Made by a program: the position numbers and the translations under genes
Shown: in pieces, positions 2,731 to 18,551 of the stretch
How the letters are laid out: each line of letters opens with the position of its first letter
Position numbering within the stretch: position 1 is the first letter of the stretch
DNA from: Falsirhodobacter flavus
Lineage (GTDB): Bacteria > Pseudomonadota > Alphaproteobacteria > Rhodobacterales > Rhodobacteraceae
Reading direction: 5' to 3'
Assembly (NCBI GenBank): GCA_029846755.1
Contig: JARWBI010000009.1
Coordinates: 1-64,000, forward strand
DNA length: 64,000 bases
Notes under the pieces: model-generated
What the model was told of the DNA's origin: nothing
Seen by the model: only the letters and a program-made list of their open reading frames with translations
The model's database searches: none

Positions 2731-2855
2731 ACGGCATATCCCGTTTCGGGCGGCCCTTTCAGGCCGCCGTGATTTCATGTGTACGGGAAGTGCTGCCGAA
2801 AGCCTTGGGGAGGTGGCTGCTTCCACTCGTTATCTGGCACCTGCGCGGGGCAGGA

Positions 2856-3944
2856 TCAATGCGCCCGTGCGGCAAAAGCGTGTGCGGATGCGGCATCCCA
2901 CTCGATCTGCGTCTGTGCGCCCGGTGCCAGTCCCGACGCCATCGGATGGCCGAAGGGCAGACGGATGCCCACCTCCTCGCCCCAGCTTGTCCGCGCAAGG
3001 ATCGAGGTCACGTTGCCAAGGAAGGTGATGTCGGCGATCGTCACCGGCAGGCTTGGACCCGCGCCGGGCTGCGGCACAAGACGGATGCGTTCGGGGCGCA
3101 GCATCAGTTCGGCGCGGCCCTTGGGATCGGCGCCGTGCAGCGGCACGCCGCGCACCTCGGTCCCGTCGGCAAAGCGCAGATCGGCGGTCCCGCCCGAGGC
3201 GCGGGTAAATTCCGCCGTCAGGAACGCGCTGTCGCCGACGAAATCGGCCACGAAATGCGACGCGGGGCTGTTATAGAGCTGCGGCCCGGTGCCGACCTGT
3301 TCGATCCGGCCCTTGTTGAACACCGCGATCCGGTCGGACAGGCGTAGCGCCTCCTCCTGGTCATGGGTGACATAAAGGATCGTGACGCCGGTTTCCTGAT
3401 GGATGCGGCGGATCTCGTGCTGGATCTCCTCGCGCAGCTTCTTGTCCAGCGCCGAGAGCGGCTCGTCCATCAGCAGGACGGGCGGGTCGTATACCAGCGC
3501 ACGGGCCAGCGCCACGCGCTGCTGCTGGCCGCCCGACATGTTGGCGGGCATCCGGTCCTCGAACCCCTGAAGCCGCGCCAGTTCAAGCGCGCGCTTCACG
3601 CGGCGCTGCACCTCGTCCGCAGGGGTGCGGCGCACGCGCAGGGGAAAGGCGACGTTCTCGCCCACGCTCAGATGCGGGAACAGGGTATAGCGTTGGAACA
3701 CCATCCCGATGTTGCGCTTGTGCGAGGGCGTCTTCAGCAGGGTCTTGCCGCGCAGCAGGATGTCGCCCGCCGTCGGCTCCTGAAAGCCGGCAAGGATATA
3801 GAGCGTCGTGCTTTTCCCCGAACCCGACGGGCCGAGGAAGGTCATGAACTCGCCCTCGGCGATCTTCAGTTCGACATGGTCGGTCGCCACGACATCGCCG
3901 AAGGTCTTGCGGATGCCGTTGATGTGCAGAAACGGGGTCGTCAT
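2856..3944 (-). CDS. ABC transporter ATP-binding protein, PotA type
   Basis: A 362-residue ATPase that powers import through the two permeases encoded just upstream. It has Walker A (GPSGSGKST), the signature [15 protein letters not shown], Walker B (VLLMDEPLSALD) and the switch His (YVTHDQEEA). The C-terminal third is a TOBE/MOP-like regulatory domain (AELMLRPERIRLV), as in spermidine/putrescine and iron importers. The start is the ATG at 3944, which overlaps the permease stop (ATGA), so it is last in the eight-gene operon that starts at 11397. PotA-like ATPases serve polyamines and other small cations; here the operon context points to the substrate of the monooxygenase pathway. Confidence 0.95.
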   Translation of the reverse strand: MTTPFLHINGIRKTFGDVVATDHVELKIAEGEFMTFLGPSGSGKSTTLYILAGFQEPTAGDILLRGKTLLKTPSHKRNIGMVFQRYTLFPHLSVGENVAFPLRVRRTPADEVQRRVKRALELARLQGFEDRMPANMSGGQQQRVALARALVYDPPVLLMDEPLSALDKKLREEIQHEIRRIHQETGVTILYVTHDQEEALRLSDRIAVFNKGRIEQVGTGPQLYNSPASHFVADFVGDSAFLTAEFTRASGGTADLRFADGTEVRGVPLHGADPKGRAELMLRPERIRLVPQPGAGPSLPVTIADITFLGNVTSILARTSWGEEVGIRLPFGHPMASGLAPGAQTQIEWDAASAHAFAARAH

Positions 3945-4741
3945 TGCTTTTTCCCTTTGCGGGTGAAGGCGGCAAGAACCATCAGCGCCACGGTCAGCGC
4001 GATAAGAAGGGTGGAGGCGGCGGCGATCACCGGCGACAGATCCTGCCGCAGCGTGCCCCAGACCTTGATGGGCAGGGTTTGCAGGCGCGGGCTGGCCATG
4101 AAGATCGCCAGAACCACCTCGTCCCACGAGATCAGGAAAGAAAAGATCGCGGCCGAGAACAGCCCGTGCTTGATCGACGGAAGCGTGACGCGCAGACGCG
4201 CCTCCCACGGGGATGCGCCGCACAGGATCGCGGCATCCTCGATGGATTTGTCGAACCCCTCCAGCGCGCCGGAAATCGCGATGATTGCAAAGGGCAGCGC
4301 GATGACCAGATGCGCCAGAACGAAGCCCACGAACGTCCCCGCGATTCCGAGCCACAGGAACGTGGCGTAAAGCGCAATGGCCAACACCACGACTGGCATC
4401 ACCATCGGCATCAGGAAGAACCCGCGCAGGAAGGCCCGCCCGCGGAACGTGCCGCGCACCAGCGCCATAGACGCCAGAAATCCAAGGATCACCGAAAGCA
4501 CCGCCACGACCGCCGCCACCTTGAACGAGGTGAAGGCAGCATCCAGCCAGCGGGGGTCGGAGAACAGCTCCTCATACCATTTCAGCGTCCAGCCTGGCGG
4601 CGGGAAGATCAGCCAGCGGCTGTCGCCGAAGGACAGCGCGATGATGAACAGGATCGGCAGCAGCAGGAACGCGGCCACCAAAGCGCAGACCGCGCCCAGC
4701 GCCCAGCGCCACCAGCCCAGCATGTGAAAGTTCAGAAGCAT
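3941..4741 (-). CDS. ABC transporter permease, PotC type
   Basis: A 266-residue inner-membrane subunit with about six hydrophobic segments and the EAA-loop region DAAILCGASPWEARLRVTLP that contacts the ATPase. It pairs with the permease encoded upstream to form the import channel. The ATG at 4741 overlaps the stop of the preceding permease gene (ATGA), and its own stop overlaps the ATPase start, so the three are translationally coupled. The sequence SFLISWDEVVLAIFM is typical of PotC-type permeases. Substrate cannot be read from the sequence. Confidence 0.93.
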   Translation of the reverse strand: MLLNFHMLGWWRWALGAVCALVAAFLLLPILFIIALSFGDSRWLIFPPPGWTLKWYEELFSDPRWLDAAFTSFKVAAVVAVLSVILGFLASMALVRGTFRGRAFLRGFFLMPMVMPVVVLAIALYATFLWLGIAGTFVGFVLAHLVIALPFAIIAISGALEGFDKSIEDAAILCGASPWEARLRVTLPSIKHGLFSAAIFSFLISWDEVVLAIFMASPRLQTLPIKVWGTLRQDLSPVIAAASTLLIALTVALMVLAAFTRKGKKQ

Positions 4742-5571
4742 CACTGCGCTCCTTTCGGCAGGCCGACCAGCCGGATCTGCAGGGCATAGAGCGCCAGCGT
4801 TGCAACCAGCAGCACGAAGGCCGCCGCGCCGCCAAGGCCCCAGTTCACCAGCGACTGCACCAGCTGCGCGATCAGTTCCGCCAGCATCATGTGCGACGTG
4901 CCGCCCAGAAGCGAGGGCGTGACGTAATAGCCAAGCGCCATGACGAAAACCATCAGCACCCCCGACGCGATCCCCGGCACGCACAGCGGCAGCAGAACCC
5001 GCCATAGCGCCTGCCACCGCGTCGCCCCGCAGAGCGAGGCCGCTTGCAGCACCGAGGCGTCGATCTGTCGGATCACGCCATAGATAGGCAGGATCATGAA
5101 GGGCAGCATGATATAGACCATCCCGATCGTGACCCCGATCAGGTTGTTGACCAATTCCAGCGGCGCGTCGGTGATGCCCAGCCCCATCAGGATCTGGTTC
5201 ACCAGCCCCGTGCGCTGTAGCAGCACCATCCACGCATAGGTCCGCGCCAGAAGGTTCGTCCACATCGACAGGATCACGATGGCGAAAAGCACCATCGACC
5301 AGCGCGGCGGCAGGATCACCAGCGCCCACGCCACCGGAAAGGCCAGCAGCAGGGTGATGACGGTGACGATTCCCGCCACCATGAAGGTGTTCAGGAACAC
5401 CTTGGCATAGGTCGCCGTGCCGAAAAGCGTGGCGTAATTCTGGAACCCGAGGCCGGGTTCGGTGACGGACCGCAGCAGCAGCCACATCACCGGCATCACG
5501 AAAAACGCCACCAGCAGTGCCAGCGCCGGAAGCGCGAAGCCGAAACCGCGACGTGCGGCTATCGCGGCCAT
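4741..5571 (-). CDS. ABC transporter permease, PotB type
   Basis: A 276-residue membrane protein with six predicted helices and an EAA loop (AASLCGATRWQALWRVLLP). The start is taken as the ATG at 5571, one base after the TGA of the binding-protein gene, giving MAAIAARRGFGFALPALALL. An in-frame start further upstream would overlap the binding-protein gene by about 100 bases and is less likely. It forms a heterodimer with the PotC-like subunit. The gene order binding protein, permease, permease, ATPase is the usual one for this transporter class. Confidence 0.92.
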   Translation of the reverse strand: MAAIAARRGFGFALPALALLVAFFVMPVMWLLLRSVTEPGLGFQNYATLFGTATYAKVFLNTFMVAGIVTVITLLLAFPVAWALVILPPRWSMVLFAIVILSMWTNLLARTYAWMVLLQRTGLVNQILMGLGITDAPLELVNNLIGVTIGMVYIMLPFMILPIYGVIRQIDASVLQAASLCGATRWQALWRVLLPLCVPGIASGVLMVFVMALGYYVTPSLLGGTSHMMLAELIAQLVQSLVNWGLGGAAAFVLLVATLALYALQIRLVGLPKGAQ

Positions 5572-5572
5572 C

Positions 5573-6571
5573 TCACTCGGCCTGCCATGCATACCAGCGG
5601 CTGCCGATCTCGTCGCGATGCTCGGCCCAATAGGCCATGTCGGCGTCGATCTGCGGCGCGCTTTGCGCATCGGGCAGGGTGGCGCGGATTTCAGGGTCCA
5701 TCAGGTCCGCGGCCTCAATATTGATCGGGGCGTAACCCGTCGCCGCCGCGAATTCGGCCTGACCGCGGGCGGATGTCGCCTCGGCGATGAAGGCCATCGC
5801 GGCATCCTTGTTCGCGGCACCCTTGGGCACCACCAGCGCGTCGGCGGCGGTGATGTTCTGGTCCCACGCGATGTTCACGTCCATGCCGTCGGCCTGAAGC
5901 GCGGCCAGCCGCCCGTTCCAGAAGATGCCCAAGGGCGCCTCGCCCGAGGCCAGAAGCTGCTGCGACTGCGCGCCCGAGGTCCACCAGATGATCTCGGATT
6001 TGATCGTGTCCAGTTTCGCAAATGCGCGGTCCAGATCCAGCGGGTAGAGCGCGTCGGGTGCCACGCCATCGGCCAGCAGCGCCGCTTCGATCACGCCGGG
6101 GGCGGACCATTTGTAGAAGGTGCGCTTGCCGGGAAATTTCTCGGTGTCGAACAGATCGGCATAGGTCTGTGGCGCTTCGGGAAACGCCGAAGGGTTCGAT
6201 CCCAGCACGAAGGAATAATAGAAACTGCCGACCGCGTATTCCGACACGAAACGCGGGTCGAGCTTGGATTTGTCGATCACGGCGAAGTCCAGCGGCTCCA
6301 GAAGCCCCTGCTGTCCGGCTTGAAGGGCATAGTCGAATTCGACGTCGACCACGTCCCATGTCGGGCTGCCCGCCTCGACCATCGCCTTCAGCTTGCCGTA
6401 GTCGGTGGGGCCGTCCTGCAGAACGCCGGTGCCCGAGGACTCGGCAAAGGGGTCGGCCCAGAATTCGGTCTGGGCGTCCTGCGTGGTGCCGCCCCAGCTG
6501 GTGAACACCATGTCCTGTGCCACCGCAGGCGCGGCAACCACAAGGGCTGCCGCGATCATTGCGTATTTCAT
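5573..6571 (-). CDS. Periplasmic substrate-binding protein, PotD-like
   Basis: A 332-residue protein with a clear Sec signal peptide (MKYAMIAAALVVAAPAVAQD, cleavage after AVA). The mature N-terminus VFTSWGGTTQDAQ is typical of the spermidine/putrescine-type (family 1) binding proteins. It captures the solute in the periplasm for the permeases downstream. The ribosome site and ATG at 6571 lie 24 bases after the aldehyde dehydrogenase stop, so the importer genes continue the catabolic operon. Aromatic residues expected to cage a quaternary or charged amine are frequent (for example EIIWWTSG and IFWNGRL), which would suit a betaine or polyamine, but the ligand is inferred. Confidence 0.9.
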   Translation of the reverse strand: MKYAMIAAALVVAAPAVAQDMVFTSWGGTTQDAQTEFWADPFAESSGTGVLQDGPTDYGKLKAMVEAGSPTWDVVDVEFDYALQAGQQGLLEPLDFAVIDKSKLDPRFVSEYAVGSFYYSFVLGSNPSAFPEAPQTYADLFDTEKFPGKRTFYKWSAPGVIEAALLADGVAPDALYPLDLDRAFAKLDTIKSEIIWWTSGAQSQQLLASGEAPLGIFWNGRLAALQADGMDVNIAWDQNITAADALVVPKGAANKDAAMAFIAEATSARGQAEFAAATGYAPINIEAADLMDPEIRATLPDAQSAPQIDADMAYWAEHRDEIGSRWYAWQAE

Positions 6572-6595
6572 GTCTTCCTCCCTGAATGCGCCTCC

Positions 6596-8062
6596 TCAGC
6601 GCATGATGAACGGATCCGGAATGGGTTCGTCCGACGTCCGCAGCCAGACGGTCTTGACTGCGGTGTAATCCAGCACCGCCGCGATGCCTCCTTCGCGGCC
6701 ATGCCCCGAAAGGCCGTGCCCGCCGAACGGGGCCATCGGCGATACGGCGCGATAGGTGTTGATCCAGACGATCCCCGCCTTGATGCGCCGCACCATCCGG
6801 TGCGCGCGGGCCAGATCGCGGGTGAATACCCCCGAGGCCAGCCCGTATTGCGTCGAATTGGCCAGCGCGACGGCGTCTTCTTCGGTGTCGAAGGCGATGA
6901 CCGACAGGACCGGGCCAAACAGCTCGGTCCCGACCGCAGGCGCATCTGGCACGGCGGAACAATCGAGGATCGTCGGCGGGTAATAGAACCCCTCCCCCTC
7001 CGGCGTCTTGCCGCCCGTCACCAGCGTCGCACCGGCCTCAACGGACGCAGCGACGACCTCCTCGATCTTGCTGCGTTGGCGGGCGGTGCAGAGGGGGCCG
7101 ACCTCGGTCGCCATGTCCTGCGGGGTGCCGATCTTCACCGCCTTCGCCTTTTCGGCGAGCAGGGCGAGGAAGCGGTCCTTCACCTCTGCCGCCACGATCA
7201 GGCGCGAGCCTGCGACGCAGCTTTGCCCCGTCGCGGCGAAGATGCCCGCGATCTGCGCGTTGGCCGCGCTTTCCAGATCGGCATCGGCAAAGACGATGAA
7301 CGGGGATTTCCCCCCCAGTTCCAGCGACGCCGAAGCGAGGTTTTCCGCCGAGTTGCGGATGACATGCCGCGCCGCATCCGGCCCGCCGGTGAAGGCGATG
7401 TGATCGACCAGCGGATGCGCGGTCAGGATCGCCCCGCAGCGCGGACCGAACCCCGTCAGGATGTTGACGACGCCCGCAGGAAACCCGGCTTCATGCACCA
7501 GTTTCGCAAATTCCAGAAGCGGCGCGGGGCCGTCTTCGGATGCCTTCACGACAATGGTGCATCCTGCCGCAAGCGCCGGGCCGATCTTCACCGCCGACAG
7601 GAAAAGCTGGCTGTTCCACGGCACGATCGCGGCGACGACGCCCTTCGGCTCGCGGCGCAGCCAGACCTCCATGTCGGGCTTGTCGATCGGCAGATGCGCG
7701 CCTTCGATCTTGTCCGCCAACCCAGCATAGTAACGGTAGTATTCCGCGACATAGGCGATCTGGGCCGACGTTTCGCGGATGATCTTGCCGGTATCGCGGG
7801 TTTCCAGTTCCGCCAGTCGCGGCGCGTGTTCGGCAATCAGGTCCGCCAGCCGATACAGCAGCTTGCCCCGCGCCGATGCCGTCAGCCCCGCCCATTCCGG
7901 CGCATCGAAGGCGCGGCGTGCGGCGCGAACGGCGCGGTCCACCTCCCCCTCGCGCGCCTCGGGCATTTCGGCCCAAGGCTGCGCGGTCGCGGGGTCGAGG
8001 CTCTGGAACGTCGCCTCGGCATCGCTGAACGTGCCGTCGATATACTGCTGGAACCGCTGCAT
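6596..8062 (-). CDS. NAD(P)-dependent aldehyde dehydrogenase
   Basis: A 488-residue class-1/2-type aldehyde dehydrogenase that oxidises an aldehyde to the acid. The catalytic cysteine is Cys282 in TGQSCVAGSR, the general base Glu248 is in SLELGGKSP, the oxyanion Asn is in VPWNSQ, and the coenzyme loop is FTGGPDA. The ATG at 8062 shares a base with the stop of the LLM gene (TGATG); a GTG three bases upstream would also work. Tight coupling to a flavin monooxygenase suggests that its substrate is the semialdehyde made by ring opening. That role is inferred by analogy with the trigonelline and pyridine pathways, where an aldehyde dehydrogenase follows the oxygenase. Confidence 0.93.
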   Translation of the reverse strand: MQRFQQYIDGTFSDAEATFQSLDPATAQPWAEMPEAREGEVDRAVRAARRAFDAPEWAGLTASARGKLLYRLADLIAEHAPRLAELETRDTGKIIRETSAQIAYVAEYYRYYAGLADKIEGAHLPIDKPDMEVWLRREPKGVVAAIVPWNSQLFLSAVKIGPALAAGCTIVVKASEDGPAPLLEFAKLVHEAGFPAGVVNILTGFGPRCGAILTAHPLVDHIAFTGGPDAARHVIRNSAENLASASLELGGKSPFIVFADADLESAANAQIAGIFAATGQSCVAGSRLIVAAEVKDRFLALLAEKAKAVKIGTPQDMATEVGPLCTARQRSKIEEVVAASVEAGATLVTGGKTPEGEGFYYPPTILDCSAVPDAPAVGTELFGPVLSVIAFDTEEDAVALANSTQYGLASGVFTRDLARAHRMVRRIKAGIVWINTYRAVSPMAPFGGHGLSGHGREGGIAAVLDYTAVKTVWLRTSDEPIPDPFIMR

Positions 8063-9105
8063 CACGCCTCCTTGAACGCGGGCATCACCTCGGCGATGAA
8101 CCGCTCCAGCGAGGCTTTCTTGCGTTCGAACGTCATGCCGGTGTCGATCCAGAACGAGAATTCGTCATATCCCAGATCCTCGTACGCCTTCAGGCGCGAG
8201 ATGACCTCGGGCGCTTCGCCGATGACGCAGCCCTGACGCATCTTGTCCGCGCCGTAATAGGTGTTCGCCGCGATTTCCTCGTCGGTCAGGGTCTGGATCA
8301 GGCCCTGTTCGATGGGGCGCTCGTTTTTGAACCATGCTCCGAAATAGTTGTAGAAGCGGTTCATTTCCTCGGCCCCGCGCTGGGCGTCGGCCTCGCTGTC
8401 CGCGACATAGGTGTGGCGCAGCAGCATGATCTTGGGGCGCGGGATGTCGGGGTGCTTTTCGCAGGCGGCGTTGAAGCGGTCCATCAAGCTGATGACTTCC
8501 TCGTCCGGCAGATGCAGCGGGGTCACCTGCACGTTGCAGCCATTGGCCACCGCGAATTCGTGGCTGTTGGGATCGCGCGCCGCGACCCAGATCGGCGGGT
8601 GCGGTTTCTGCACCGGCATCGGCGCCGATGTGGTCTTGGGAAACTGCCAGAACTGGCCTTCGTGGGTGTAATCGCCCTTCCACAGCCCCTGGATCGCGGG
8701 GATCAGCTCGCGCATCTTCTGGCCCGCGTCCCACGCGGTCAGGCCAGGCTCCAGCCGTTCGTATTCGAAATTGTAGGCCCCGCGCGCGATGCCGATATCC
8801 AGCCGACCCTGCGTGACCAGATCGGTCATCGCGGCTTCGCCCGCCAGTTTGATCGGGTGCCAGAACGGCGCAACCACGGTGCCGGTGCCAAGGCGCACGT
8901 TCTTCGTGCGCCGCGCGATGTCGACAAGGTTGATGAACGGGTTCGGCGCGATGGTGAAGTTCATCCCATGATGCTCGCCCGTCCAGATCGCGTGCATCCC
9001 GCCTTCGTCGGCGATCTTGCACAGCTCGATCATCTGTTCATAAAGCGCGGCCTGATCCTCGGCGGGATCGGTGCGCTCCATGTGGATGAAAAGCGAAAAC
9101 TTCAT
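8062..9105 (-). CDS. LLM-class flavin-dependent monooxygenase
   Basis: A 347-residue luciferase-like monooxygenase beginning MKFSLFIHMERTDP. Family hallmarks include the conserved WTGEHHG near residue 42, NPFINLVDIARRTKNVRLGTGTVV, and the TDLVTQGRLDIGIARG strand. Such enzymes use reduced FMN supplied by a separate reductase to insert oxygen, often cleaving C-N bonds or opening N-heterocycles. The reductase is probably the fusion protein encoded just upstream; the ATG at 9105 overlaps that gene's stop (ATGA). I infer that it performs the committed oxidation of the imported compound. Other LLM substrates such as alkanesulfonates or nitriles cannot be excluded from sequence alone. Confidence 0.92.
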   Translation of the reverse strand: MKFSLFIHMERTDPAEDQAALYEQMIELCKIADEGGMHAIWTGEHHGMNFTIAPNPFINLVDIARRTKNVRLGTGTVVAPFWHPIKLAGEAAMTDLVTQGRLDIGIARGAYNFEYERLEPGLTAWDAGQKMRELIPAIQGLWKGDYTHEGQFWQFPKTTSAPMPVQKPHPPIWVAARDPNSHEFAVANGCNVQVTPLHLPDEEVISLMDRFNAACEKHPDIPRPKIMLLRHTYVADSEADAQRGAEEMNRFYNYFGAWFKNERPIEQGLIQTLTDEEIAANTYYGADKMRQGCVIGEAPEVISRLKAYEDLGYDEFSFWIDTGMTFERKKASLERFIAEVMPAFKEA

Positions 9106-10823
9106 AGGCTGCCTCCCTTGACGAGCTGGCGCACGTCGCCCGCCGTCTCTGTTCCGAAGTAAGTTCCAAAGTTGCCGATCCGGGATTCCTCGGCGAACCG
9201 GGTCAGCATGATGCGAAGTGCGGAGTCCGCGACGTCGCCCAGCGTGCAGTCGTCCAGCGCCACGAAGGAGCCCTTGACGGGCGTTCCCTCGGCGGCCTGA
9301 CACAGGAACGCGATGTGGCTGTGCCCGCGCTTGTCGTCGTCGAACACCGCATAGATGAACCCCGGCTGCACCGACAGGCCCGTCTTTGCCAGCAGGTCCG
9401 CCAGCGCCGCACGCGCGCCATCCTTGCCCGCGATGCGCGAAGGCAGTGTCGAACCGCCGCCGGTGTCATCCACCAGCAGCACCGCGCCCGCCTGTTCGAT
9501 GATCGCGCTGACCACCACATCCGGGCCGGTATCGGCCGCCTTGGCACCGTTCGCCGCCTGCACATAGGCGCCGCGGAAATATCCAAGTCCGGGGGCAGGC
9601 GTATTCTCGAACTCCACCACGCGGCCGATCAGGATGGCGTGGTCCCCCGCCTCGATCACGCGGTGCATGGTGCAGTCGAACCATGCGGCGGTGCCTTCGA
9701 TCACCGGGCTGCCGGCGGGGCCGTGCTTCCACTCGACGGTGGCGAAGCGATCCTCGACCGGGCGGGCGAAAGTGTTGGACACATCCTTCTGCGCTTCGGA
9801 CAGGATGTTGATTGCAAAGCCCTTGGCCCGCGTCACCGCGTCATAGTTGCGCGAGGTCCGCGCGATCGACACCTGCAGCAGCGGCGGGTCCAGCGACACC
9901 GACGCGAAGCTGTTGGCGGTGAAGCCAAGCGGCTGGCCGTTATTGTCCACCGTCACCACGGTCACGCCGGTCATGAACGCGCCGAAGGCATCGCGCAGCG
10001 GGCGCAGCGCATCGGCACCCGACACAGGGCGCGCAAGCCAGTCGCGCATCGCTTCGGTCACCGTTTCGGGCGCGGTCAGGTTGACCATGTGCCGATGGTT
10101 CGGAACGATGAAGGCGCGGCCACGCGGCGCGGCGCGGGCCATCGTCTCGGCCATCGCGGGGGTCGAGTTCGGGTCGAACTCTCCGGTCAGCACCAGCATC
10201 GGGCAGGCGATCTCGGCCAGCCGGTCGGCATAGACGTCATCGCCCGAAGCGAAGGCGGCATAGGCCGTGGCATATCCTTCGGGGCTGACATCGGCCAGAA
10301 GCTGCGAGGTCAGAGCCTTGGCGGCCTGATCGGCCCAGCTTTCCGAGAACCAGCGCGCCAGCGGGGCTTGCGGATCGGCCGGGGTGCCATTGGCGGCGGC
10401 GGCCCGGATCGCGGTGGCGCGGGCGATCACGGCCTCGCGCGCTTCTTCGGTCCGGCGATGCACGCCGCAGACCAGCGCCACGCGCAGGATCAGGTCCGGA
10501 TGATCGACCGCCAGCCCGCCCGCGATCAGCGATCCCATCGAATGCCCGGCAAGGTTCACCGGGCCCACATCCAGCGCACGGATCGCCTGCGCGGCCCAAG
10601 CCACGAAATCGGCCAGCCCCGCGCCCTGCGGCAGCGGGGAAGACCCCCCGTGCCCGGGCATGTCCAGCGCGATGACGCGGTGCGTTCCGGCCAGCGCCTC
10701 GATCTGCGGGCCCCATGCGGCGGACTGCATCCCGACCCCGTGGATCAGGACCAGCGGTTCGCCCTGCCCGGCTTCGCGATAGCTGAGGACGCCCTCAGAC
10801 AGCGGCAGGGTTTTGGACGTCAT
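9102..10823 (-). CDS. Alpha/beta-hydrolase fused to flavin reductase and a Nudix-like domain
   Basis: A 573-residue fusion. Residues 1-265 are an alpha/beta-hydrolase with the oxyanion HG motif (LVLIHGVG), nucleophile Ser95 in AGHSMGS, probable acid Asp217 in LTGEFDP and His245 in PNHRHM. Residues 275-430 are a flavin reductase-like (split-barrel FMN) domain: AFMTGVTVVT, GFTANSFASVSLDPPL, ending GYFRGAY. Residues 435-573 resemble a Nudix fold, but the catalytic box has decayed (LPSRIAGKDGARAALADLLA in place of the GX5EX7REUXEE pattern). The reductase part likely feeds FMNH2 to the LLM enzyme, and the hydrolase part may cleave a formamide, amide or lactone product. The ATG at 10823 is preferred to a TTG at 10829; the gene overlaps the upstream gene by 29 bases. 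Confidence 0.9.
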   Translation of the reverse strand: MTSKTLPLSEGVLSYREAGQGEPLVLIHGVGMQSAAWGPQIEALAGTHRVIALDMPGHGGSSPLPQGAGLADFVAWAAQAIRALDVGPVNLAGHSMGSLIAGGLAVDHPDLILRVALVCGVHRRTEEAREAVIARATAIRAAAANGTPADPQAPLARWFSESWADQAAKALTSQLLADVSPEGYATAYAAFASGDDVYADRLAEIACPMLVLTGEFDPNSTPAMAETMARAAPRGRAFIVPNHRHMVNLTAPETVTEAMRDWLARPVSGADALRPLRDAFGAFMTGVTVVTVDNNGQPLGFTANSFASVSLDPPLLQVSIARTSRNYDAVTRAKGFAINILSEAQKDVSNTFARPVEDRFATVEWKHGPAGSPVIEGTAAWFDCTMHRVIEAGDHAILIGRVVEFENTPAPGLGYFRGAYVQAANGAKAADTGPDVVVSAIIEQAGAVLLVDDTGGGSTLPSRIAGKDGARAALADLLAKTGLSVQPGFIYAVFDDDKRGHSHIAFLCQAAEGTPVKGSFVALDDCTLGDVADSALRIMLTRFAEESRIGNFGTYFGTETAGDVRQLVKGGSL

Positions 10824-11397
10824 GGCCAAGATCCTTCAGGTCCTGATAACGGTCGCCGATGCGGTGATGCGGACGCCCGCCATAGGACGCGCCGAGTGCC
10901 ACGAGGATCTCGTCTTCCGCCGGGGCATCGGGGACCGAGAAGTTGATGGTCAGGTAATGCGAACGGCGGCCTTCGTCATTCTTGTCCATCAGCGGGATCA
11001 TGACGGGCGCGTTCGCCCCGCCCCGCGTGTTGCAGAACGCCAGATAGGATTTCGCGCCGACCGCACTGCGGTAATGGTTGCCGAAACGCAGAGTGTGGAT
11101 CAGCGCCGAGGCATGCTCGACCTCGCCGCCCAGACCCACGACGGCGGATTTGCCGTAGCCTTCGACCCGTTCGCCCGAACCGGCGTGGTCGATGATCATC
11201 TTGGTCAGCACTTCGCCAAGGATCGGGGCGACGCGGTGGATCTCGGGCTTGAGGTCTTCGACGAAGCCCTGACCGAACCACGGGTTCTTCAGGATGGCGG
11301 TGGCGGCGACCATGACCAGCGGGGTCTGCGCCTCGCGTCCGCCCTCGATCAGGGTGGTTTCCACATGGAGGAGGGTTTTTCGGATCAGAGCGCTCAT
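10795..11397 (-). CDS. AA_synth (DUF1185-type) family protein
   Basis: About 200 residues, beginning MSALIRKTLLHVETTLIEGG, first gene of the eight-gene minus-strand operon. The sequence fits the amino acid synthesis (AA_synth, PF06684) family: VVGLGGEVEHASALIHTLRFG, GAKSYLAFCNTRGGANAPVMIPLMDK and GGRPHHRIGD. The biochemical role of the family is not established to my knowledge. Its frequent position beside LLM monooxygenases and flavin reductases, as here, suggests a hydrolytic or isomerising step in heterocycle breakdown, which is inference. A ribosome site (AAAGGT) precedes the ATG at 11397, and the 29-base overlap with the next gene indicates coupling. Confidence 0.85.
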   Translation of the reverse strand: MSALIRKTLLHVETTLIEGGREAQTPLVMVAATAILKNPWFGQGFVEDLKPEIHRVAPILGEVLTKMIIDHAGSGERVEGYGKSAVVGLGGEVEHASALIHTLRFGNHYRSAVGAKSYLAFCNTRGGANAPVMIPLMDKNDEGRRSHYLTINFSVPDAPAEDEILVALGASYGGRPHHRIGDRYQDLKDLGHDVQNPAAV

Positions 11398-11435
11398 TTC
11401 CGCGGACCTTTCAATGGACTTCCTGCCGCCCATTT

Positions 11436-11445
11436 TGGTATACCA
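11436..11445. promoter_or_regulatory. Palindromic operator TGGTATACCA, probable GntR/FCD site
   Basis: A perfect 10-base palindrome between the divergent AA_synth operon and the DUF1330 gene. The same sequence recurs at 14782-14791 before the NCS1 permease. FCD-type GntR regulators commonly bind short TNGTNNNACNA-like palindromes, and such a regulator is encoded at 11809. The assignment is inference from motif and position. Confidence 0.65.
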
Positions 11446-11490
11446 TATGACAGGATGTCAAATGCAAATCTTCTTTCAGCGAGGAAGTCC

Positions 11491-11802
11491 ATGTCTCACG
11501 GCGCCTATTGGATCGCCCATGTCATCGTCACGGACAGCGAGGCTTATGCGGATTATCAGAGGCTTGCACCCGCCGCCTTCGCTGCCCACGGCGCCGTTTT
11601 CCTGGCCCGCGGCGGCAATGCGGAAACACTGGAGGGGCCGGAGCTTGCCCGCCATGTCGTGATCGGCTTCCCTTCGCTGGCGGCTGCCCGCGCCTGTTAC
11701 GACAGCGCGGAATACACGGCGGCGCGGGCCGCCAGAACGGGGGCCGCGCAAACGCATGTCGTCATCGTGGAGGCGCTGGCGCCTCTCTCATCCATCGGGT
11801 AA
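11491..11802 (+). CDS. DUF1330 family protein
   Basis: A 103-residue cytoplasmic protein of the dimeric alpha+beta barrel DUF1330 family, starting MSHGAYWIAHVIVTDSEAYA after a strong GAGGAAG ribosome site. Family signatures visible are YWIAHVxVTD, the YADYQRLAPAAFAAHG helix, ARGG and VIGFPSLAAARACYDSAEYTAA. The function of DUF1330 is unknown; these proteins resemble antibiotic biosynthesis monooxygenase (ABM)-type barrels and may act on a small pathway intermediate. It is divergent from the eight-gene operon, shares its regulatory region, and is followed 6 bases later by the GntR gene, so the two plus-strand genes probably form one transcript. Confidence 0.9.
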   Translation: MSHGAYWIAHVIVTDSEAYADYQRLAPAAFAAHGAVFLARGGNAETLEGPELARHVVIGFPSLAAARACYDSAEYTAARAARTGAAQTHVVIVEALAPLSSIG

Positions 11803-11808
11803 CCTTGC

Positions 11809-12486
11809 ATGATGTCCGATGCTGCCACAGCCCTTCTGCGTATAGATACGCCCCCCAAGACGCTGCGCGAAATGGTGCTGGAGCGGCTTCGCGCTGCAAT
11901 CATCTCGGGCCATTTCAAATCGGGGGAACGGCTGGTCGAACGTCCGCTGTGCGATTCGCTGGGCGTCAGCCGCACCGTCATCCGCGAAGCGATGCGCTAT
12001 CTGGAGGCGGAGGGGCTGGTGGAAATCCAGTCCAATCGCGGCCCGGTGGTTGCATCCATGGACTGGGACCGCGCGGCCCAGATCTATGAAATCCGCCGAT
12101 TGCTGGAGACGAACGCCGCCCGTGCCTGCGCCGAAAAGGCGGATGCCCGCGTGAAGACGGACCTTCGGCGGGCACTCAAGGCGCTGGGCGCGGCATATGA
12201 CTCGGGCGAGACGCGGCCCCTGTTCGACGCATCGACCGAGTTCTATCAGACGATCTTCATTGCCGCCGGCCACGACATGGCGTGGGAGATCGTGCAGCGC
12301 CTGAACAGCCGTATCAGCCGTCTGCGCGCGATGACGCTGGCGACCACCGACCGGCATGTGTCGGGCTTTGCCCGCATGACCCAGATCGCCGAGGCCATCT
12401 GCGCGAACGATGCCGATGCGGCCGGCCGCGCCGTCGAAACCCACCTGTCCGAGGCTGCCGCCATCGCCCGCCGCCTGCTGGTCTAG
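11809..12486 (+). CDS. GntR-family (FadR/FCD) transcriptional regulator
   Basis: A 225-residue regulator. Residues 15-80 form the winged helix (TLREMVLERLRAAIISGHFKSGERL, then LCDSLGVSRTVIREAMRYLEAEGLV). The rest is an FCD effector domain with the usual metal-binding pattern (DASTEFYQTIF, then HLSEAAA near the end). It directly follows the DUF1330 gene. It is the best candidate to bind the TGGTATACCA palindromes at 11436 and 14782, and so to control both the monooxygenase operon and the NCS1 permease. Its last bases overlap the stop of the convergent IclR gene over CTAG (12483-12486). Confidence 0.93.
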   Translation: MMSDAATALLRIDTPPKTLREMVLERLRAAIISGHFKSGERLVERPLCDSLGVSRTVIREAMRYLEAEGLVEIQSNRGPVVASMDWDRAAQIYEIRRLLETNAARACAEKADARVKTDLRRALKALGAAYDSGETRPLFDASTEFYQTIFIAAGHDMAWEIVQRLNSRISRLRAMTLATTDRHVSGFARMTQIAEAICANDADAAGRAVETHLSEAAAIARRLLV

Positions 12487-13196
12487 GCCAGCGTTCGCGC
12501 GAATTCGGCCATCGCCGCGCCGATGCGGGCGGTCACGTCGGGTCGCGCCTCTGCCACGGTCAGCGAGAGGGCGACGGCGGCGTTCGTGCCTGGAATCGCG
12601 GCGCCGATGCAGCACATGCCCTCGCGCACCTCCCCGGCATCGAGCGACCAGCCGCGCGCCGCGGTTGCCGCCAGATCGCGGCGCAGGGCCGGGATGGTGC
12701 GGATGCTGGCCGGGGTGATCGGCGGTGGCAGGGGCCGGGTCAGAAAGACATCCAGTGCGCTCGGCTCCATCGCGGCCAGAAGCGCCTTGCCGGTCGCGGT
12801 GAACACGGCAGGCAGGCGCATGCCCACGCGAAAGGTAATGCCCAAGGGCGCCGCCGAATCGTGGCAGGCCTGATAGATGACCTCGGCTCCCTCCAACACC
12901 GACAAGGTGACCGTGTGGCGCGACAGAAGCGGGTCGGCGGCAAGGCCCCGGCGGAAATCGGCCCGCAGATCGCGCGGGACCGCCCAGCGCGCCGCATGCC
13001 CGCCAAGGTGAAAGCCGCCCGCTTCCTCGCGCAGCAGGTTCAGCTGGCAAAGGGTATGGCACAGGGCATGCGCGCTGCTTTTGGGTATCCCCGCCGCGCG
13101 GGCGATCTCGGACAGGCCAAGGCCCGGCCGGGCGGTGACAAGGTCCAGAATGGCGGCGGCGCGCAATACGGCGGGAACGGGTTTGGCGGTGTTCAT
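12483..13196 (-). CDS. IclR-family transcriptional regulator
   Basis: A 237-residue protein with an N-terminal helix-turn-helix (LSEIARAAGIPKSSAHALCHTL) and a C-terminal IclR effector domain (VFTATGKALLAAM, then GWSLDAGEVREGMCCIGAAIPG). It is transcribed away from the succinate-semialdehyde dehydrogenase gene; the 84 bases between them hold a composite inverted repeat (13239-13261) that is a likely operator. IclR proteins often control catabolism of aromatic or heterocyclic compounds. The effector is unknown. The gene meets the GntR gene tail to tail with a 4-base overlap. Confidence 0.93.
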   Translation of the reverse strand: MNTAKPVPAVLRAAAILDLVTARPGLGLSEIARAAGIPKSSAHALCHTLCQLNLLREEAGGFHLGGHAARWAVPRDLRADFRRGLAADPLLSRHTVTLSVLEGAEVIYQACHDSAAPLGITFRVGMRLPAVFTATGKALLAAMEPSALDVFLTRPLPPPITPASIRTIPALRRDLAATAARGWSLDAGEVREGMCCIGAAIPGTNAAVALSLTVAEARPDVTARIGAAMAEFARTLA

Positions 13197-13238
13197 CGTT
13201 GACGTCGGGACTTTCAGACTGCTAGCTGTTCTTCATAC

Positions 13239-13261
13239 CGAACGCCGTTCGATATGTCGAA
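13239..13261. promoter_or_regulatory. Composite inverted repeats, probable IclR operator
   Basis: Two overlapping palindromes sit just before the dehydrogenase ribosome site: CGAACGCCGTTCG (13239-13251) and TTCGATATGTCGAA (13248-13261). They share a half-site, so the hexamer CGAACG or its complement appears three times. This fits the tandem or interleaved sites bound by IclR-family dimers, and the divergent IclR gene starts at 13196. Confidence 0.6.
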
Positions 13262-13280
13262 CGATATTGAGGAGCCCTCC

Positions 13281-14729
13281 ATGCTGTCCCTGAAAGATCC
13301 CGGCCTTCTGGTCGATACCTGCCTCGTGAACGGAAACTGGGTGCATGCCACCTCGGCCGAGGTGATCGCAGTCACGAACCCCGCCGACGGATCGGTCGTC
13401 GGCACCGTCCCAAGCCTGTCGCCCGCCGAGGTCGAAGGCGCCATCTCCGCTGCCGAAGCCGCCTTTCCCGCATGGGCCAAGCGCCCGGCCAAGGAACGCA
13501 GCGCGATCCTGCGGAAATGGTTCGACCTGATGATCGCGAATGCCGACGATCTGGCGGCGATCATGACCGCAGAACAGGGCAAACCTCTGTCCGAGGCGAA
13601 AGGCGAGATCACCTATGCCGCCAGCTTCATCGAATGGTTCGCCGAGGAGGCCAAACGCGTCTACGGCGACACGATCCCCTCGCCGCAGGCAAACAGCCGC
13701 CTGACCGTCATCCGCCAGCCAATCGGTGTGACTGCCGCGATCACGCCGTGGAACTTCCCCGCCGCGATGATCACCCGCAAGGCCGCGCCGGCGCTCGCCT
13801 CGGGCTGCGTGATGATCGTGCGGCCCGCCGATCTGACACCGCTGACGGCACTTGCGCTGGGCGTTCTGGCCGAACGGGCGGGCGTTCCGGCGGGCGTTCT
13901 GCAGATCGTCACGGGTGAAAGCCGCCCGATCGGCAAGGTGCTGACCGATTCGGACGTGGTGCGGAAACTCTCCTTCACCGGATCGACCGAGGTGGGCCGC
14001 GTGCTGATGGCGCAATGCGCGCCGACCATCAAACGCATATCGCTGGAACTGGGCGGCAACGCGCCTTTCATCGTGTTCGACGACGCCGATCTGGATGCCG
14101 CCGTCGAAGGCGCGATGATCGCGAAGTATCGGAATGCGGGCCAAACCTGCGTCTGCGCCAACCGCATCCTGGTGCAGCGCGCCATCTATGACGCCTTTGC
14201 CGAAAAACTGGCGGCCAAGGTCGCCGCGCTGAAGGTCGGCCCCGGCACCGAGGACGGCGTGCAGATCGGCCCGATGATCGAAGAAAAGGGCATCGCCAAG
14301 GTCGAGGCGCATATCGCCGACGCGCTGTCCAAGGGGGCAAAGCTGATTACCGGCGGCAAGCGCCTGGGCGGGCTGCTTTTTCAGCCCGGCGTGCTGACGG
14401 GCGTGACCACCGACATGACCGTGACGCGAGAGGAGACCTTCGGCCCCCTCGCCCCGCTTTTCGCCTTCGACACCGAGGAGGAGGCCGTCGCAATGGCCAA
14501 TGACACGATCTTCGGGCTAGCGGCCTATTTCTACACCCGCGACCATGCCCGCATGATCCGCGTGTCCGAGGCGCTGGAATACGGCATGGTCGGCCACAAT
14601 ACCGGCCTCATCTCGAACGAGGTGGCACCGTTCGGCGGCGTCAAGCAGTCCGGCCTTGGCCGCGAAGGATCGAAATACGGCATCGAAGAATACCTTGAGG
14701 TCAAATACGTCTGCTCGGCCATCGGCTGA
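13281..14729 (+). CDS. gabD: Succinate-semialdehyde dehydrogenase, GabD-like
   Basis: A 482-residue aldehyde dehydrogenase that probably oxidises succinate semialdehyde to succinate. Catalytic Cys290 lies in GQTCVCANR, giving a Cys-X-Cys pair as in the redox-switched SSADHs; the base is Glu256 in SLELGGNAP, and the C-terminal HNTGLISNEVAPFGGVKQSGLGREGS block is characteristic of GabD. The cofactor-contacting lysine of the usual KPA motif is Arg here (IVRPADLTP), which may alter NAD/NADP preference. The start is the ATG at 13281 after GAGGAG. It stands beside the monooxygenase operon, and in trigonelline and pyridine breakdown an SSADH closes the route. Confidence 0.9.
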   Translation: MLSLKDPGLLVDTCLVNGNWVHATSAEVIAVTNPADGSVVGTVPSLSPAEVEGAISAAEAAFPAWAKRPAKERSAILRKWFDLMIANADDLAAIMTAEQGKPLSEAKGEITYAASFIEWFAEEAKRVYGDTIPSPQANSRLTVIRQPIGVTAAITPWNFPAAMITRKAAPALASGCVMIVRPADLTPLTALALGVLAERAGVPAGVLQIVTGESRPIGKVLTDSDVVRKLSFTGSTEVGRVLMAQCAPTIKRISLELGGNAPFIVFDDADLDAAVEGAMIAKYRNAGQTCVCANRILVQRAIYDAFAEKLAAKVAALKVGPGTEDGVQIGPMIEEKGIAKVEAHIADALSKGAKLITGGKRLGGLLFQPGVLTGVTTDMTVTREETFGPLAPLFAFDTEEEAVAMANDTIFGLAAYFYTRDHARMIRVSEALEYGMVGHNTGLISNEVAPFGGVKQSGLGREGSKYGIEEYLEVKYVCSAIG

Positions 14730-14781
14730 ACCCGGCCTGAGGCGGCGCGACCCCCTTGCGCATCTTAAATATACCCTATTA

Positions 14782-14791
14782 TGGTATACCA
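14782..14791. promoter_or_regulatory. Second copy of operator TGGTATACCA
   Basis: A palindrome identical to that at 11436-11445, placed 26 bases before the NCS1 permease start and just after an AT-rich stretch (AAATATACCCTATTATGG) that could hold a -10 box. Binding here would block transcription of the permease. The shared motif links the permease to the minus-strand catabolic operon. Confidence 0.65.
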
Positions 14792-14816
14792 CTATTGCAG
14801 AGGGGGGAGCCGCCGC

Positions 14817-16193
14817 ATGTCAACCATCGAAGAGAACAGCGTCGGCTTCGTCCCGCTTGGTGAACGCCACGGCCGGGCGCATGATCTGTTCACCCTCTGG
14901 TTCACGACAAACATCGCGCCGCTTCCGATCGTGACCGGCGCGATGGCGGTTCAGGTGTTCGACCTGCCGCTGATCTGGGCCGCGACCGCCATCGTCTTCG
15001 GCAATATCGTCGGCGCACTCATCCTCGGGGCCTGTTCGGCGCAGGGGCCGCAGATGGGCCTTGCGCAGATGATCCAGAGCCGGGGCCAGTTCGGACGCTA
15101 TGGTGCGCTGCTGGTCGTGGGCTTCGCGACGCTGCTTTATCTCGGCTTCTTCACCTCCAACATCGTGCTGGCGGCAAAATCGGTCCACGCGCTGATGCCT
15201 GCGATAAACACGCCTTCGGGGGCCGTGATCTCGGCACTGGCGGCGGCCATCATCGCCATCATGGGATACCGCACGATCCATCTGCTGAATCGCGTCGGCA
15301 TGTGGTTCATGGGCATTGGCCTTCTGGCGGCGGGATATAACCTCGTGACCTCCCTGCCCGAGGGGATCTGGACCCAGGGCGAGGTCACGGTCTTCGGCTG
15401 GTTCTCGATGTTCTCGCTCGCTGCGGTCTGGCATCTGTCATACGCCTGCTACACCTCGGACTACTCGCGTTACCTGCCGCCGCAGGTCGGCATCCGTGCC
15501 CCGATGCTGGCCAGCTTCGGCGGAGCTGCAACGGGCACCTCGGCCTCGTTCATGCTTGGCGCGATCGCGGTGGCCGGGGCGCCCGCAGGAGCCGATGCGA
15601 TGGAGATCGTCAGCGCATCCGTCGGCGTTCTGGCACCCGTTCTGCTGCTTTTGTTCATCCTGAACATCGTCGCGCACAATGCGCTGAACATCTATGGCGC
15701 GGTGCTGTCGCTCATCACGGTGATCCAGACCTTCGCCGCCAATTGGGAACCGGCAAGGCGCGCGCGCATCGTCATGTCGATCGCGGTGCTTCTGGGCTGT
15801 CTTGCGATGGCAACCCTGACTGCCGACTTCGTGCCGCGCTTCATTTCCTTCGTGATCGGCCTGATGATCGTGCTTGCGCCTTGGGTGACCATCAACATCC
15901 TCGACTTCTATGTCGTGAAACGCGGCAGATACGATATCGCGTCCTTCTTCCGACATGACGGAGGGATCTATGGCAAGTTCCAGCTCCGCGCCGCCATCGC
16001 CTATTTTCTCGGGATCGCCTGCCAGATCCCGATGTTGAACACGCCCTTCTATACCGGCCCCGTCGCCCGCGCGATCGGAGAGGTCGATATCGGCTGGCTG
16101 GTGGCCTTCATCGTGACAGGTATCGCCTATTTCGCCCTTGCGCCATCCACGCAGGGGGCTGCCGCGCTCGCCCCCTTACCTTCGCGTCGATAG
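14817..16193 (+). CDS. NCS1-family (purine-cytosine permease-like) transporter
   Basis: A 458-residue integral membrane protein with about 12 hydrophobic segments. The N-terminus has the NCS1 pattern HDLFTLWFTTNIAPLPIVTG, and LSYACYTSDYSRYLP matches the substrate-binding helix region of cytosine/allantoin-type permeases. Members import nucleobases, hydantoins, allantoin, thiamine precursors and similar N-heterocycles with sodium or protons. A good ribosome site (AGGGGGGAG) precedes the ATG at 14817. Its shared operator with the monooxygenase operon suggests that it brings in the same or a related heterocycle. It overlaps the convergent membrane-protein gene by 18 bases. Confidence 0.92.
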   Translation: MSTIEENSVGFVPLGERHGRAHDLFTLWFTTNIAPLPIVTGAMAVQVFDLPLIWAATAIVFGNIVGALILGACSAQGPQMGLAQMIQSRGQFGRYGALLVVGFATLLYLGFFTSNIVLAAKSVHALMPAINTPSGAVISALAAAIIAIMGYRTIHLLNRVGMWFMGIGLLAAGYNLVTSLPEGIWTQGEVTVFGWFSMFSLAAVWHLSYACYTSDYSRYLPPQVGIRAPMLASFGGAATGTSASFMLGAIAVAGAPAGADAMEIVSASVGVLAPVLLLLFILNIVAHNALNIYGAVLSLITVIQTFAANWEPARRARIVMSIAVLLGCLAMATLTADFVPRFISFVIGLMIVLAPWVTINILDFYVVKRGRYDIASFFRHDGGIYGKFQLRAAIAYFLGIACQIPMLNTPFYTGPVARAIGEVDIGWLVAFIVTGIAYFALAPSTQGAAALAPLPSRR

Positions 16194-16949
16194 GCTCCGG
16201 CCCTCGCTGCACTGCACTTCCAGCTGCAGAGTGCCGCCCGGCCCGGCAAGAAACATCAGCACCGCGTGAAGGAAGACGATCAGACCGCCCATTTCCAGCG
16301 TTTCCTCAAGCGTGGCAAGAAGACTGTAGGCGACGTTGTCCCACCCCTGCGCTGCCCAAAGCCGGGCGCCGATCATCTCCACCCCCAACGCGCCGCCAAG
16401 ATAGATCGCGGCAGACAGCACGAACAGCGCCGTGCTGCGCCTTGGAAGGGCCAACAGGAACCGGCTGAAGGCGATGGCCAGCACAACCACGACCGCGGCC
16501 CCCGGAATGACCCAGGCAAATGCAAGAAAGCCGCCGGTTTCAACGACACTGCCCACAAGTTTGTTGAGTCCTTCGTGAACTTGCGCCGCTTCGTCATAGG
16601 CCAGAAGCAGAAAGCCTGCGGACAGCGCAAGCCAGTGCCAGCGCCACCTGTCCCGTCCGCCGAACCCGCAGGCCGCCACCACCGCCAGCGCGCCCATGTT
16701 GGCCAGCAGCAGCACGAAATTGAGGAGGGTCGGAAGGTTCCGCTCCTCCTCGAACAGCAGCAGGTCCGCGATCTGGTGGAGCGTCGCGTTCGTGCTGCGA
16801 TAGGTCATCGCGGTTCCACACAGGCTGAGCACAAGCAGCAGAAGCAATGCGCCGCCAAGGATCAGGTCGATCCGGATGATCCGGATGCCGGGCGACATAT
16901 GGCCCCGCGTTGGAACATGAACCCGAGAACTCGTGAAAAACGCACCCAA
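16176..16949 (-). CDS. Uncharacterised multi-pass membrane protein
   Basis: A 257-residue protein with about six or seven hydrophobic segments (for example IDLILGGALLLLLVLSLCG, NFVLLLANMGALAVVAACGFG, WHWLALSAGFLLLAYDE). Conserved-looking polar spots inside or beside helices are AYDEAAQVHEG and LLATLEETLEMGGL, which could bind metal or protons. No named family is recognised. The start is set at the TTG at 16949 because a strong GGGAGG lies 5 bases upstream; the first ATG, at 16895, would give a shorter form. It stands alone on the minus strand, overlapping the end of the NCS1 gene. Function unknown. Confidence 0.65.
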   Translation of the reverse strand: MGAFFTSSRVHVPTRGHMSPGIRIIRIDLILGGALLLLLVLSLCGTAMTYRSTNATLHQIADLLLFEEERNLPTLLNFVLLLANMGALAVVAACGFGGRDRWRWHWLALSAGFLLLAYDEAAQVHEGLNKLVGSVVETGGFLAFAWVIPGAAVVVVLAIAFSRFLLALPRRSTALFVLSAAIYLGGALGVEMIGARLWAAQGWDNVAYSLLATLEETLEMGGLIVFLHAVLMFLAGPGGTLQLEVQCSEGRSLSTRR

Positions 16950-17200
16950 CTTGATCCTCCCTGGCGTGTTGACATGCGAATGATGAACCCAGCGTAACCT
17001 CGCGCGGTGAATATTGTAACAGAAATGTGACGGTCAATCGGGCCGAAGCATGGCGAAAGCCGCTGGCTGGTTTCAGCACCAGCCAGCCGGAATGGGCATT
17101 CACCCGGTGAATGCGATTGTCAGCGCGGCCATGTCTTCTGTTTCCAGAACCGCGCATTCGTGCGAACAGGTTCCGCCGGGCACGGCCAAAGGTGCATATC

Positions 17201-17231
17201 GTTCATGGGCGCCGTATCTGCGCCCATGAAC
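17201..17231 (-). terminator. Twelve-base-pair hairpin after the cytochrome c gene
   Basis: GTTCATGGGCGC (17201-17212) and GCGCCCATGAAC (17220-17231) form a perfect 12-base stem with a 7-base loop, 8 bases past the cytochrome stop. No U-run follows, so it may be a 3'-end-stabilising hairpin or a Rho-assisted terminator. Confidence 0.5.
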
Positions 17232-17239
17232 AAGGGGGC

Positions 17240-18541: not shown

Positions 18542-18551
18542 GTCGCTCTCC

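Follow-up and report, generated by a model that had tools for sequence, protein, structure and literature searches.

Trigonelline (N-methylnicotinate) is made by plants and is also present in the sea, and the pathway by which bacteria degrade it was reportedly solved by Perchat et al. in 2018 in Acinetobacter baylyi ADP1. How does this system compare with a locus in Falsirhodobacter flavus, found in the first 64,000 nucleotides of contig JARWBI010000009.1 (the whole stretch analyzed, hereafter the window)? On the strength of orthology, the window almost certainly carries a complete trigonelline degradation cluster: an operon of tgnF, a tgnD-tgnA fusion, tgnB and tgnC with the genes of a Pot-type ATP-binding cassette (ABC) importer, flanked by tgnE, an NCS1 permease gene, a DUF1330 gene and a GntR regulator gene. 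The cluster belongs to the known pathway worked out in Acinetobacter, with small variations only, and is not a new pathway. The similarity of its proteins makes trigonelline, rather than homarine, their most likely substrate. What the initial annotation guessed to be an unknown heterocycle pathway becomes a named one, with a substrate candidate. For the ring opening itself, by TgnA and TgnB, the available part of PMC8269262 cites Perchat et al. 2018.

The tgn cluster of the A. baylyi type strain (locus L078) contains, like the window, DUF1330, GntR, TgnF, TgnD, TgnA, TgnB, TgnC, an NCS1 permease and a succinic semialdehyde dehydrogenase (SSADH), and a comparable operator-like site precedes its tgnF. 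Identities to the A. baylyi proteins are 75% for TgnB (347 of 347 residues), 71% for TgnC (489 residues), 73% for TgnF, 54% for TgnD, 49% for TgnA (297 alignment columns), 60% for SSADH, 49% for NCS1, 54% for DUF1330 and 52% for GntR. The initial annotation had drawn a parallel between a pyridine betaine ring-opening route and tgn, proposing that the luciferase-like monooxygenase (LLM) and the AA_synth protein be compared with tgn proteins; those two are the window's TgnB and TgnF, and the orthology strengthens the parallel into an equation with tgn. Its term uncharacterised has to be given up, since AA_synth, DUF1330, GntR, NCS1 and SSADH are all present in the A. baylyi locus. A grouping of the LLM with alkanesulfonate enzymes, which would have refuted the initial annotation, is not seen: the SsuD alkanesulfonate monooxygenase model TIGR03565 gives it 32.2 bits where 518.2 are required, and model scores rule out this and the other named LLM families. 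A second Acinetobacter cluster, in strain PK01, bears the database names tgnA, tgnB and tgnC. In it, DUF1330 and GntR share one strand, and the opposite strand carries AA_synth, hydrolase, tgnA, tgnB, tgnC (the annotation of the aldehyde dehydrogenase gene next after tgnB), a cytosine-type permease, a hypothetical gene that we read as porin-like, and SSADH. The window TgnB is 75.3% identical to the product of the gene annotated tgnB in PK01. Unlike the window, the Acinetobacter clusters contain a porin-like gene, a CMD-family gene and separate tgnD and tgnA genes, and they are without a Pot-type importer within the locus.

That importer is found in Sinorhizobium meliloti, whose pSymA cluster (L002) has AA_synth, hydrolase, reductase, LLM, aldehyde dehydrogenase and four Pot-type genes in the same order as the window, with GntR and SSADH homologues nearby. 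It departs from the window in a NIPSNAP gene between tgnC and the binding-protein gene, in separate tgnD and tgnA genes, and in the absence of any NCS1 or DUF1330 match in the 25-kb locus. The S. meliloti tgn genes lie on pSymA near nodulation and nif genes, and we take the cluster to be, probably, the old trc (trigonelline catabolism) locus, which is near nif genes. An S. meliloti strain without pSymA fails to grow on trigonelline, according to the available part of PMC4207669. In S. meliloti ABS7 the match to the SSADH homologue (L002, 18839-20300) is split between two frames, joining at about 20140, and the gene may be broken or misread. TgnA of the window is 51% identical to the S. meliloti homologue, and TgnF is 74-78% identical to its homologues in Acinetobacter PK01, S. 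meliloti and Leisingera. The marine roseobacter (Roseobacteraceae) Leisingera methylohalidivorans (L003) shares GntR, F, D, A, B and C in order but, unlike the window, shows no Pot-type binding protein or permeases, NCS1, DUF1330 or SSADH of at least 50% identity in its 25.7-kb locus; after the core genes it has instead an FAD oxidoreductase, RidA, DUF1028 and another aldehyde dehydrogenase. A DAO-type FAD oxidoreductase gene likewise follows tgnC directly in a divergent tgn cluster (L194, 11913-13259); its product possibly acts on methylamine or an N-methyl intermediate.

For a wider comparison, 83 loci were used, the best 80 of 537 confirmed TgnB relatives (from a contig scan with a four-sequence TgnB alignment; A. 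baylyi L078 is one of the 80) plus L001-L003. Presence of tgnB is built into this choice, identity thresholds were fixed, and some loci end at contig ends. On these terms tgnB and tgnC are present in all 83, tgnF, tgnD and tgnA in 82 each, GntR in 79, DUF1330 in 41, the PotA-like gene in 37, the binding protein and each permease in 36, SSADH in 33 and NCS1 in 18. Only L047, a 3.3-kb contig, is without tgnF and tgnD, and only L065 without tgnA. Every locus with all five core genes (81 of 81, from the 83 examined) has them in the order F-D-A-B-C on one strand within 5 kb, an arrangement that is not due to chance. Transporters are more variable: 33 loci have the full Pot-type set without NCS1, 15 NCS1 without the full set, 32 neither and 3 both, so the combination found in the window is uncommon, although not unique. 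In samples not chosen by tgn, 14 of 385 genomes of the class, including the window's own, have a TgnB match at E 1e-100; for the fusion query at E 1e-60, the figure within the family is 37 of 295 genomes, again including its own, some of these being only distant matches. Two further loci (L190, L191) encode a TgnB-like LLM (62%) without TgnF, TgnA or TgnC matches; an alpha/beta hydrolase gene adjoins it where neighbors were scanned, in L190, and we regard these loci as a sister use of the TgnB-type oxygenase.

The window proteins were also compared at alignment columns that at least 95% of the other proteins share, after removal of matches covering less than 85% of the query. They agree at 167 of 169 such columns for TgnB (83 others), 236 of 238 for TgnC (81), 94 of 96 for TgnF (82), 73 of 74 for TgnD (81) and 69 of 71 for TgnA (81). 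The catalytic Cys and Glu of TgnC and Ser, Asp and His of TgnD, chosen from what is known of these families, are kept in all 82 aligned proteins, the window's included. In a 99-row TgnB tree, drawn with its root on a very long outgroup branch, the window falls among TgnB proteins; by path, its nearest rows are Paracoccaceae (Defluviimonas, Gemmobacter).

The 4,019,516-base genome contains just two exact copies of the palindrome TGGTATACCA, both in the window (at 11436 and 14782). A control pattern, TGGTATACCA written backwards without complementing, also occurs twice, so rarity alone is no proof. With at most one mismatch, TGGTATACCA has three matches in the window, where 0.17 would be expected and where each of 100 shuffles gave at most two; the third, inexact match lies at 3487 inside potA and is probably due to chance. 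It is the position before tgnF that makes the site convincing. Within 300 bases upstream and 30 downstream of the approximate tgnF start, TNGTATACNA is found in 68 of 81 loci, and all 1.62 Mb of those loci hold only 74 such sites; S. meliloti L002, unlike the window, has no TNGTATACNA in the region before tgnF. Allowing one mismatch, TGGTATACCA precedes tgnF in 80 of 81 loci and SSADH in 10 of 32, and it was found before none of the other genes scanned: tgnB (0 of 82), tgnC (0 of 83), the binding protein (0 of 35), potA and permB (0 of 36 each), NCS1 (0 of 18) and the porin-like gene (0 of 10). The window's NCS1 site is therefore without parallel in the 18 NCS1 loci tested, which speaks against reading it as a general rule; in the four Acinetobacter loci that have a second site of the exact type, it stands before SSADH and not before NCS1. 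The palindrome agrees with the TKGT/ACMA boxes that the available part of PMC4494728 gives for GntR proteins of the FadR type. A scan of 2700-16300 for sigma-70-like promoters returned a single match, TTGACA-18-CAAAAT; shuffles average 2.1, so it is not significant by number and is of interest for its position on the operator-like site, which overlaps its -10 hexamer. The two exact sites, before tgnF and NCS1, suggest one regulon covering both transporters, with GntR as a putative repressor released by trigonelline. The conserved site would define a small trigonelline regulon, for which other genomes can be searched, and it ties NCS1 to the pathway.

In a departure from the A. baylyi arrangement, tgnD and tgnA are joined in frame through a linker of roughly ten residues, at a junction that has no Met codon but a GTG codon. 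Six other loci (L009, L035, L036, L039, L062, L095) are also fused, among 118 with adjacent tgnD and tgnA out of 127 examined (the F. flavus genome is counted twice in this survey, and some genomes are perhaps repeated). Both halves reach at least 45% identity in four of the six, and all six retain the junction Met. These loci indicate that the fusion probably arose repeatedly and that a sequencing slip is unlikely here, although they are no proof of a single protein product. Searches of the open-access literature found no description of the tgnD-tgnA fusion or of a TgnR operator. The hydrolase/flavin reductase fusion of the initial annotation is thus confirmed as one frame, but it comprises three domains and not two, for the last 146 residues or so of TgnA, which have no Pfam match, form a tail of their own. 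A model of this tail from 46 sequences (mean pLDDT, the predicted local distance difference test, of 84) matches PDB entry 3rh7 and then Nudix enzymes such as 3cng. The TgnA half as a whole matches 3rh7 at E 7.8e-86; that entry bears the title 'putative oxidoreductase (SMa0793)' and shows the S. meliloti cluster's TgnA, near-identical in sequence, so a crystal structure of a TgnA ortholog already exists. The tail therefore looks like a Nudix fold. Nudix hydrolases carry the box GX5EX7REUXEEXGU, and a strict search for it, run with no positive control, found the canonical box in none of 82 TgnA proteins, the window's included. Since the box is absent, the modeled tail is probably a degenerate Nudix-fold domain without hydrolase activity. 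The C-terminal domain of p-hydroxyphenylacetate hydroxylase reductase has a sensor role, and by analogy the TgnA tail may have one too. The cluster raises two questions, the purpose of this domain and the function of PF06684, the family of TgnF.

If the chemistry reportedly established in A. baylyi carries over, trigonelline would enter by the ABC importer, the NCS1 permease or both, and would inactivate the GntR repressor sitting on TGGTATACCA before tgnF and the NCS1 gene. TgnA would then give reduced flavin to TgnB, which would open the ring between C5 and C6; TgnC would oxidize the hydroxybutyrolactone product, and TgnD would split the product of TgnC into succinic semialdehyde, methylamine, formate and CO2. 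TgnE, with the help of TgnF, would convert the semialdehyde into succinate. Orthology, gene order and the operator-like site are observed parts of this scheme, to which substrate, repressor polarity and transport roles are added as presumptions.

Could a tgn-like pathway have been retuned to homarine (N-methylpicolinate) or another marine pyridine betaine? Homarine, a plausible substrate in the initial annotation, far exceeded trigonelline in abundance in the sea samples of PMC8269262, as far as its available part goes, and TgnB relatives occur in marine Roseobacteraceae. The same source considers it improbable on steric grounds that TgnA/TgnB open homarine, and found that Ruegeria pomeroyi grew less effectively on homarine than on trigonelline. 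In the window, the columns at which TgnB agrees are conserved across proteins among which are those of A. baylyi and S. meliloti, the tree places it with A. baylyi in one 40-row fork that excludes S. meliloti (support 86/75, below the starring threshold, whereas the rhizobial fork with S. meliloti is starred at 100/98), and the downstream enzymes are orthologous to tgn too. We regard a homarine pathway as extremely improbable. That the Pot-type genes encode an importer for polyamines, or another substrate, adjoining tgn by chance is also very unlikely. The best-scoring named models do include PotA, PotB, PotC and PotD, joined in the case of the ATPase by the 2-aminoethylphosphonate model PhnT2, but no polyamine model reaches its cut-off: PotA scores 322.1 bits against 482, PotB 165.4 against 348, PotC 167.1 against 326 and PotD 42.2 against 582, the closest being a PotA subfamily model with 321.5 against 355.6. 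Moreover, the same four genes follow tgnC, behind the NIPSNAP gene, in the S. meliloti cluster, with identities to the window of 72% (binding protein), 67% (PotB-like), 57% (PotC-like) and 65% (PotA-like), and all four are present in 36 of the 83 tgn loci.

A more serious alternative, although still an unlikely one, divides the locus: F-D/A-B-C, GntR and DUF1330 would form a tgn core, and SSADH and NCS1 an unrelated pair that IclR controls, serving γ-aminobutyrate or a nucleobase. IclR is found in none of the 83 loci, SSADH of at least 50% identity in only 33 of them (28 of the 63 that are at least 21 kb long), and the window SSADH is preceded by no operator-like site within one mismatch. Against the division, the NCS1 gene has one of the genome's two exact TGGTATACCA sites and is the only genome match, at E 1e-20, to the A. 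baylyi cluster permease; SSADH is the best of 11 genome matches to the A. baylyi gene, at 60% (the next is 55%), and the Acinetobacter clusters contain both. A complete trigonelline cluster is by far the preferred reading; several observations weigh against it. The window SSADH agrees at 153 of 163 strongly conserved columns, and its departure at the other ten, like the missing operator-like site, weakens its assignment as TgnE; it could be an ordinary GabD. In the TgnB tree the forks right around the window are unstarred and the sister drawn there, L186 (82/86), sits on a long branch, which leaves the position of the window TgnB in the tree approximate. Nor is the fate of methylamine explained: TIGR03105, which we take to cover GmaS, has only below-cut-off matches in the genome. 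A search for methylamine dehydrogenase gave no match in the genome, nor in the controls, and is uninformative.

At which step does TgnF act? The available text of PMC7913881, citing Perchat et al. 2018, gives TgnF as a helper of the SSADH TgnE, and from it we infer that the PF06684 gene of L078 is TgnF itself. The window's AA_synth protein is homologous to this published TgnF, and the initial annotation's view that the layout matched no described pathway falls with it. TgnF is the sole PF06684 match in the genome. The structure of the PF06684 protein BB2672 draws attention to four histidines, His93, 98, 144 and 174, according to the available part of PMC2954203; their likely counterparts in TgnF, paired by number and motif, are H93, H99, H145 and H175 or H176, and these are kept in 83 of 83 proteins, the window's included.

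TgnF is present in 82 of 83 tgn loci, compared with 33 that have SSADH nearby. Twenty PF06684 neighborhoods were hand-picked from 58 places in a phylum-wide draw, with known tgn-bearing genomes excluded. All six with a TgnF of at least 54% identity also have TgnC (56-71%) and a TgnD-like hydrolase (36-51%); TgnB is present in four of the six and SSADH of at least 50% in none. The other 14, at 33-39% to TgnF, showed no tgn core enzymes except one aldehyde dehydrogenase match of 31%, once generic ABC ATPase and GntR matches had been set aside; the neighbors in these distant contexts, ten genes of which were scanned, are a mixed set and uninformative on TgnF function. The linkage of TgnF with TgnC and TgnD suggests a role at the TgnC/TgnD steps, weakly, since a common enzyme such as SSADH may be encoded elsewhere. 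In the loci examined, TgnF accompanies TgnC and TgnD even when no TgnB or TgnE adjoins them, and its role as an SSADH helper therefore deserves retesting. A tentative reading, which we hold to be rather doubtful, is that TgnF works at the TgnC/TgnD steps and is no SSADH helper, and that the Nudix-fold tail of TgnA is a substrate sensor that activates the reductase. TgnF might, for instance, open the cyclic lactol form of 4-oxobutanoate-type intermediates (in this reading the TgnC substrate is such a lactol, and succinic semialdehyde forms one too) or hydrolyze an enamine released by TgnD. Such a role would explain why TgnF speeds up TgnE, why it is linked with TgnC and TgnD where TgnB or TgnE is not adjacent, and why a TgnF homolog occurs in the pathway of 7-hydroxycoumarin, itself a lactone. 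In two of the PF06684 neighborhoods, L174 and L176, TgnF, TgnD and TgnC cluster together with a short flavin reductase, CMD and GntR, and there is no match to TgnB; in L174, where genes were scanned, the order is F-D-C-flavin reductase-CMD-GntR and the TgnB search covered 12.5 kb. They perhaps represent a related pathway that starts with another oxygenase.

Domain matches place all the genes named in the initial annotation, and its set of eight minus-strand genes, where it had put them (Table 1). The eight are closely packed, adjacent ones overlapping or lying within about 25 bases. Gene starts were placed by eye from the DNA: the tgnF start at 11397 was chosen by a stretch like a ribosome-binding site (a longer open reading frame begins at 11433), and 14817 is the most likely start of NCS1, preferred because an upstream ATG at 14781 overlaps the operator-like site.

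Table 1. Genes and sites of the predicted trigonelline cluster in the window
Feature	Position	Strand	Basis or context
tgnF, AA_synth/PF06684, formerly DUF1185	10795..11397	-	PF06684 E 1.7e-65
tgnD-tgnA fusion: alpha/beta hydrolase TgnD, flavin reductase TgnA, degenerate Nudix-fold C-terminal domain (probable; about 9105-9542)	9102..10823	-	one open frame, 575 codons
tgnB, luciferase-like (LLM) predicted trigonelline monooxygenase	8062..9105	-	PF00296 E 6.7e-54
tgnC, aldehyde dehydrogenase, predicted to oxidize ring-opened hydroxybutyrolactone	6596..8062	-	orthology
Pot-type substrate-binding protein, predicted trigonelline binder	5573..6571	-	SBP_bac_8 E 4.1e-41
ABC permease, PotB-like	4741..5571	-	BPD_transp_1
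ABC permease, PotC-like	3941..4741	-	BPD_transp_1
ABC ATPase, PotA-like	2856..3944	-	ABC_tran + TOBE_2
DUF1330 protein	11491..11802	+	PF07045 E 2.4e-33
GntR/FCD regulator, predicted trigonelline-responsive repressor	11809..12486	+	GntR + FCD domain
IclR regulator, not a conserved tgn part	12483..13196	-	between GntR and SSADH genes
SSADH, predicted tgnE	13254..14729	+	NCBIfam SSADH model 716.7 bits vs cut-off 646.35
NCS1-type permease, second predicted trigonelline transporter	14817..16193	+	PF02133 (Transp_cyt_pur) E 2.5e-34
Predicted GntR (TgnR) operator TGGTATACCA	11436..11445	no strand	between tgnF and DUF1330-GntR
Second exact TGGTATACCA site	14782..14791	no strand	upstream of NCS1 gene
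Promoter-like site TTGACA-18-CAAAAT, tgnF operon	11432..11461	-	

Downstream of the ABC ATPase gene lies a gene for an FdhF/YdeP family molybdopterin oxidoreductase (481-2826, minus strand; TIGR01701, 927.7 bits). Formate is a product of trigonelline breakdown, and a role for this gene as a co-operonic formate oxidizer was considered but is unsupported, the gene being found in none of the 83 tgn loci examined. Further along the window, at 21953-25086 on the plus strand, are the ectoine genes for EctB, EctC and the ectoine hydroxylase EctD, with a MarR regulator upstream. This EctB is 606 amino acids long, with an extra N-terminal stretch of about 186 residues (the transaminase models begin at residue 187-190) that may be a fused EctA; no EctA match was seen, though the stretch was not searched by itself. 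Next to the NCS1 gene, at 16176-20864 on the minus strand, are genes for a GMC oxidoreductase, a cytochrome c and a protein with no Pfam match, possibly a three-part dehydrogenase.

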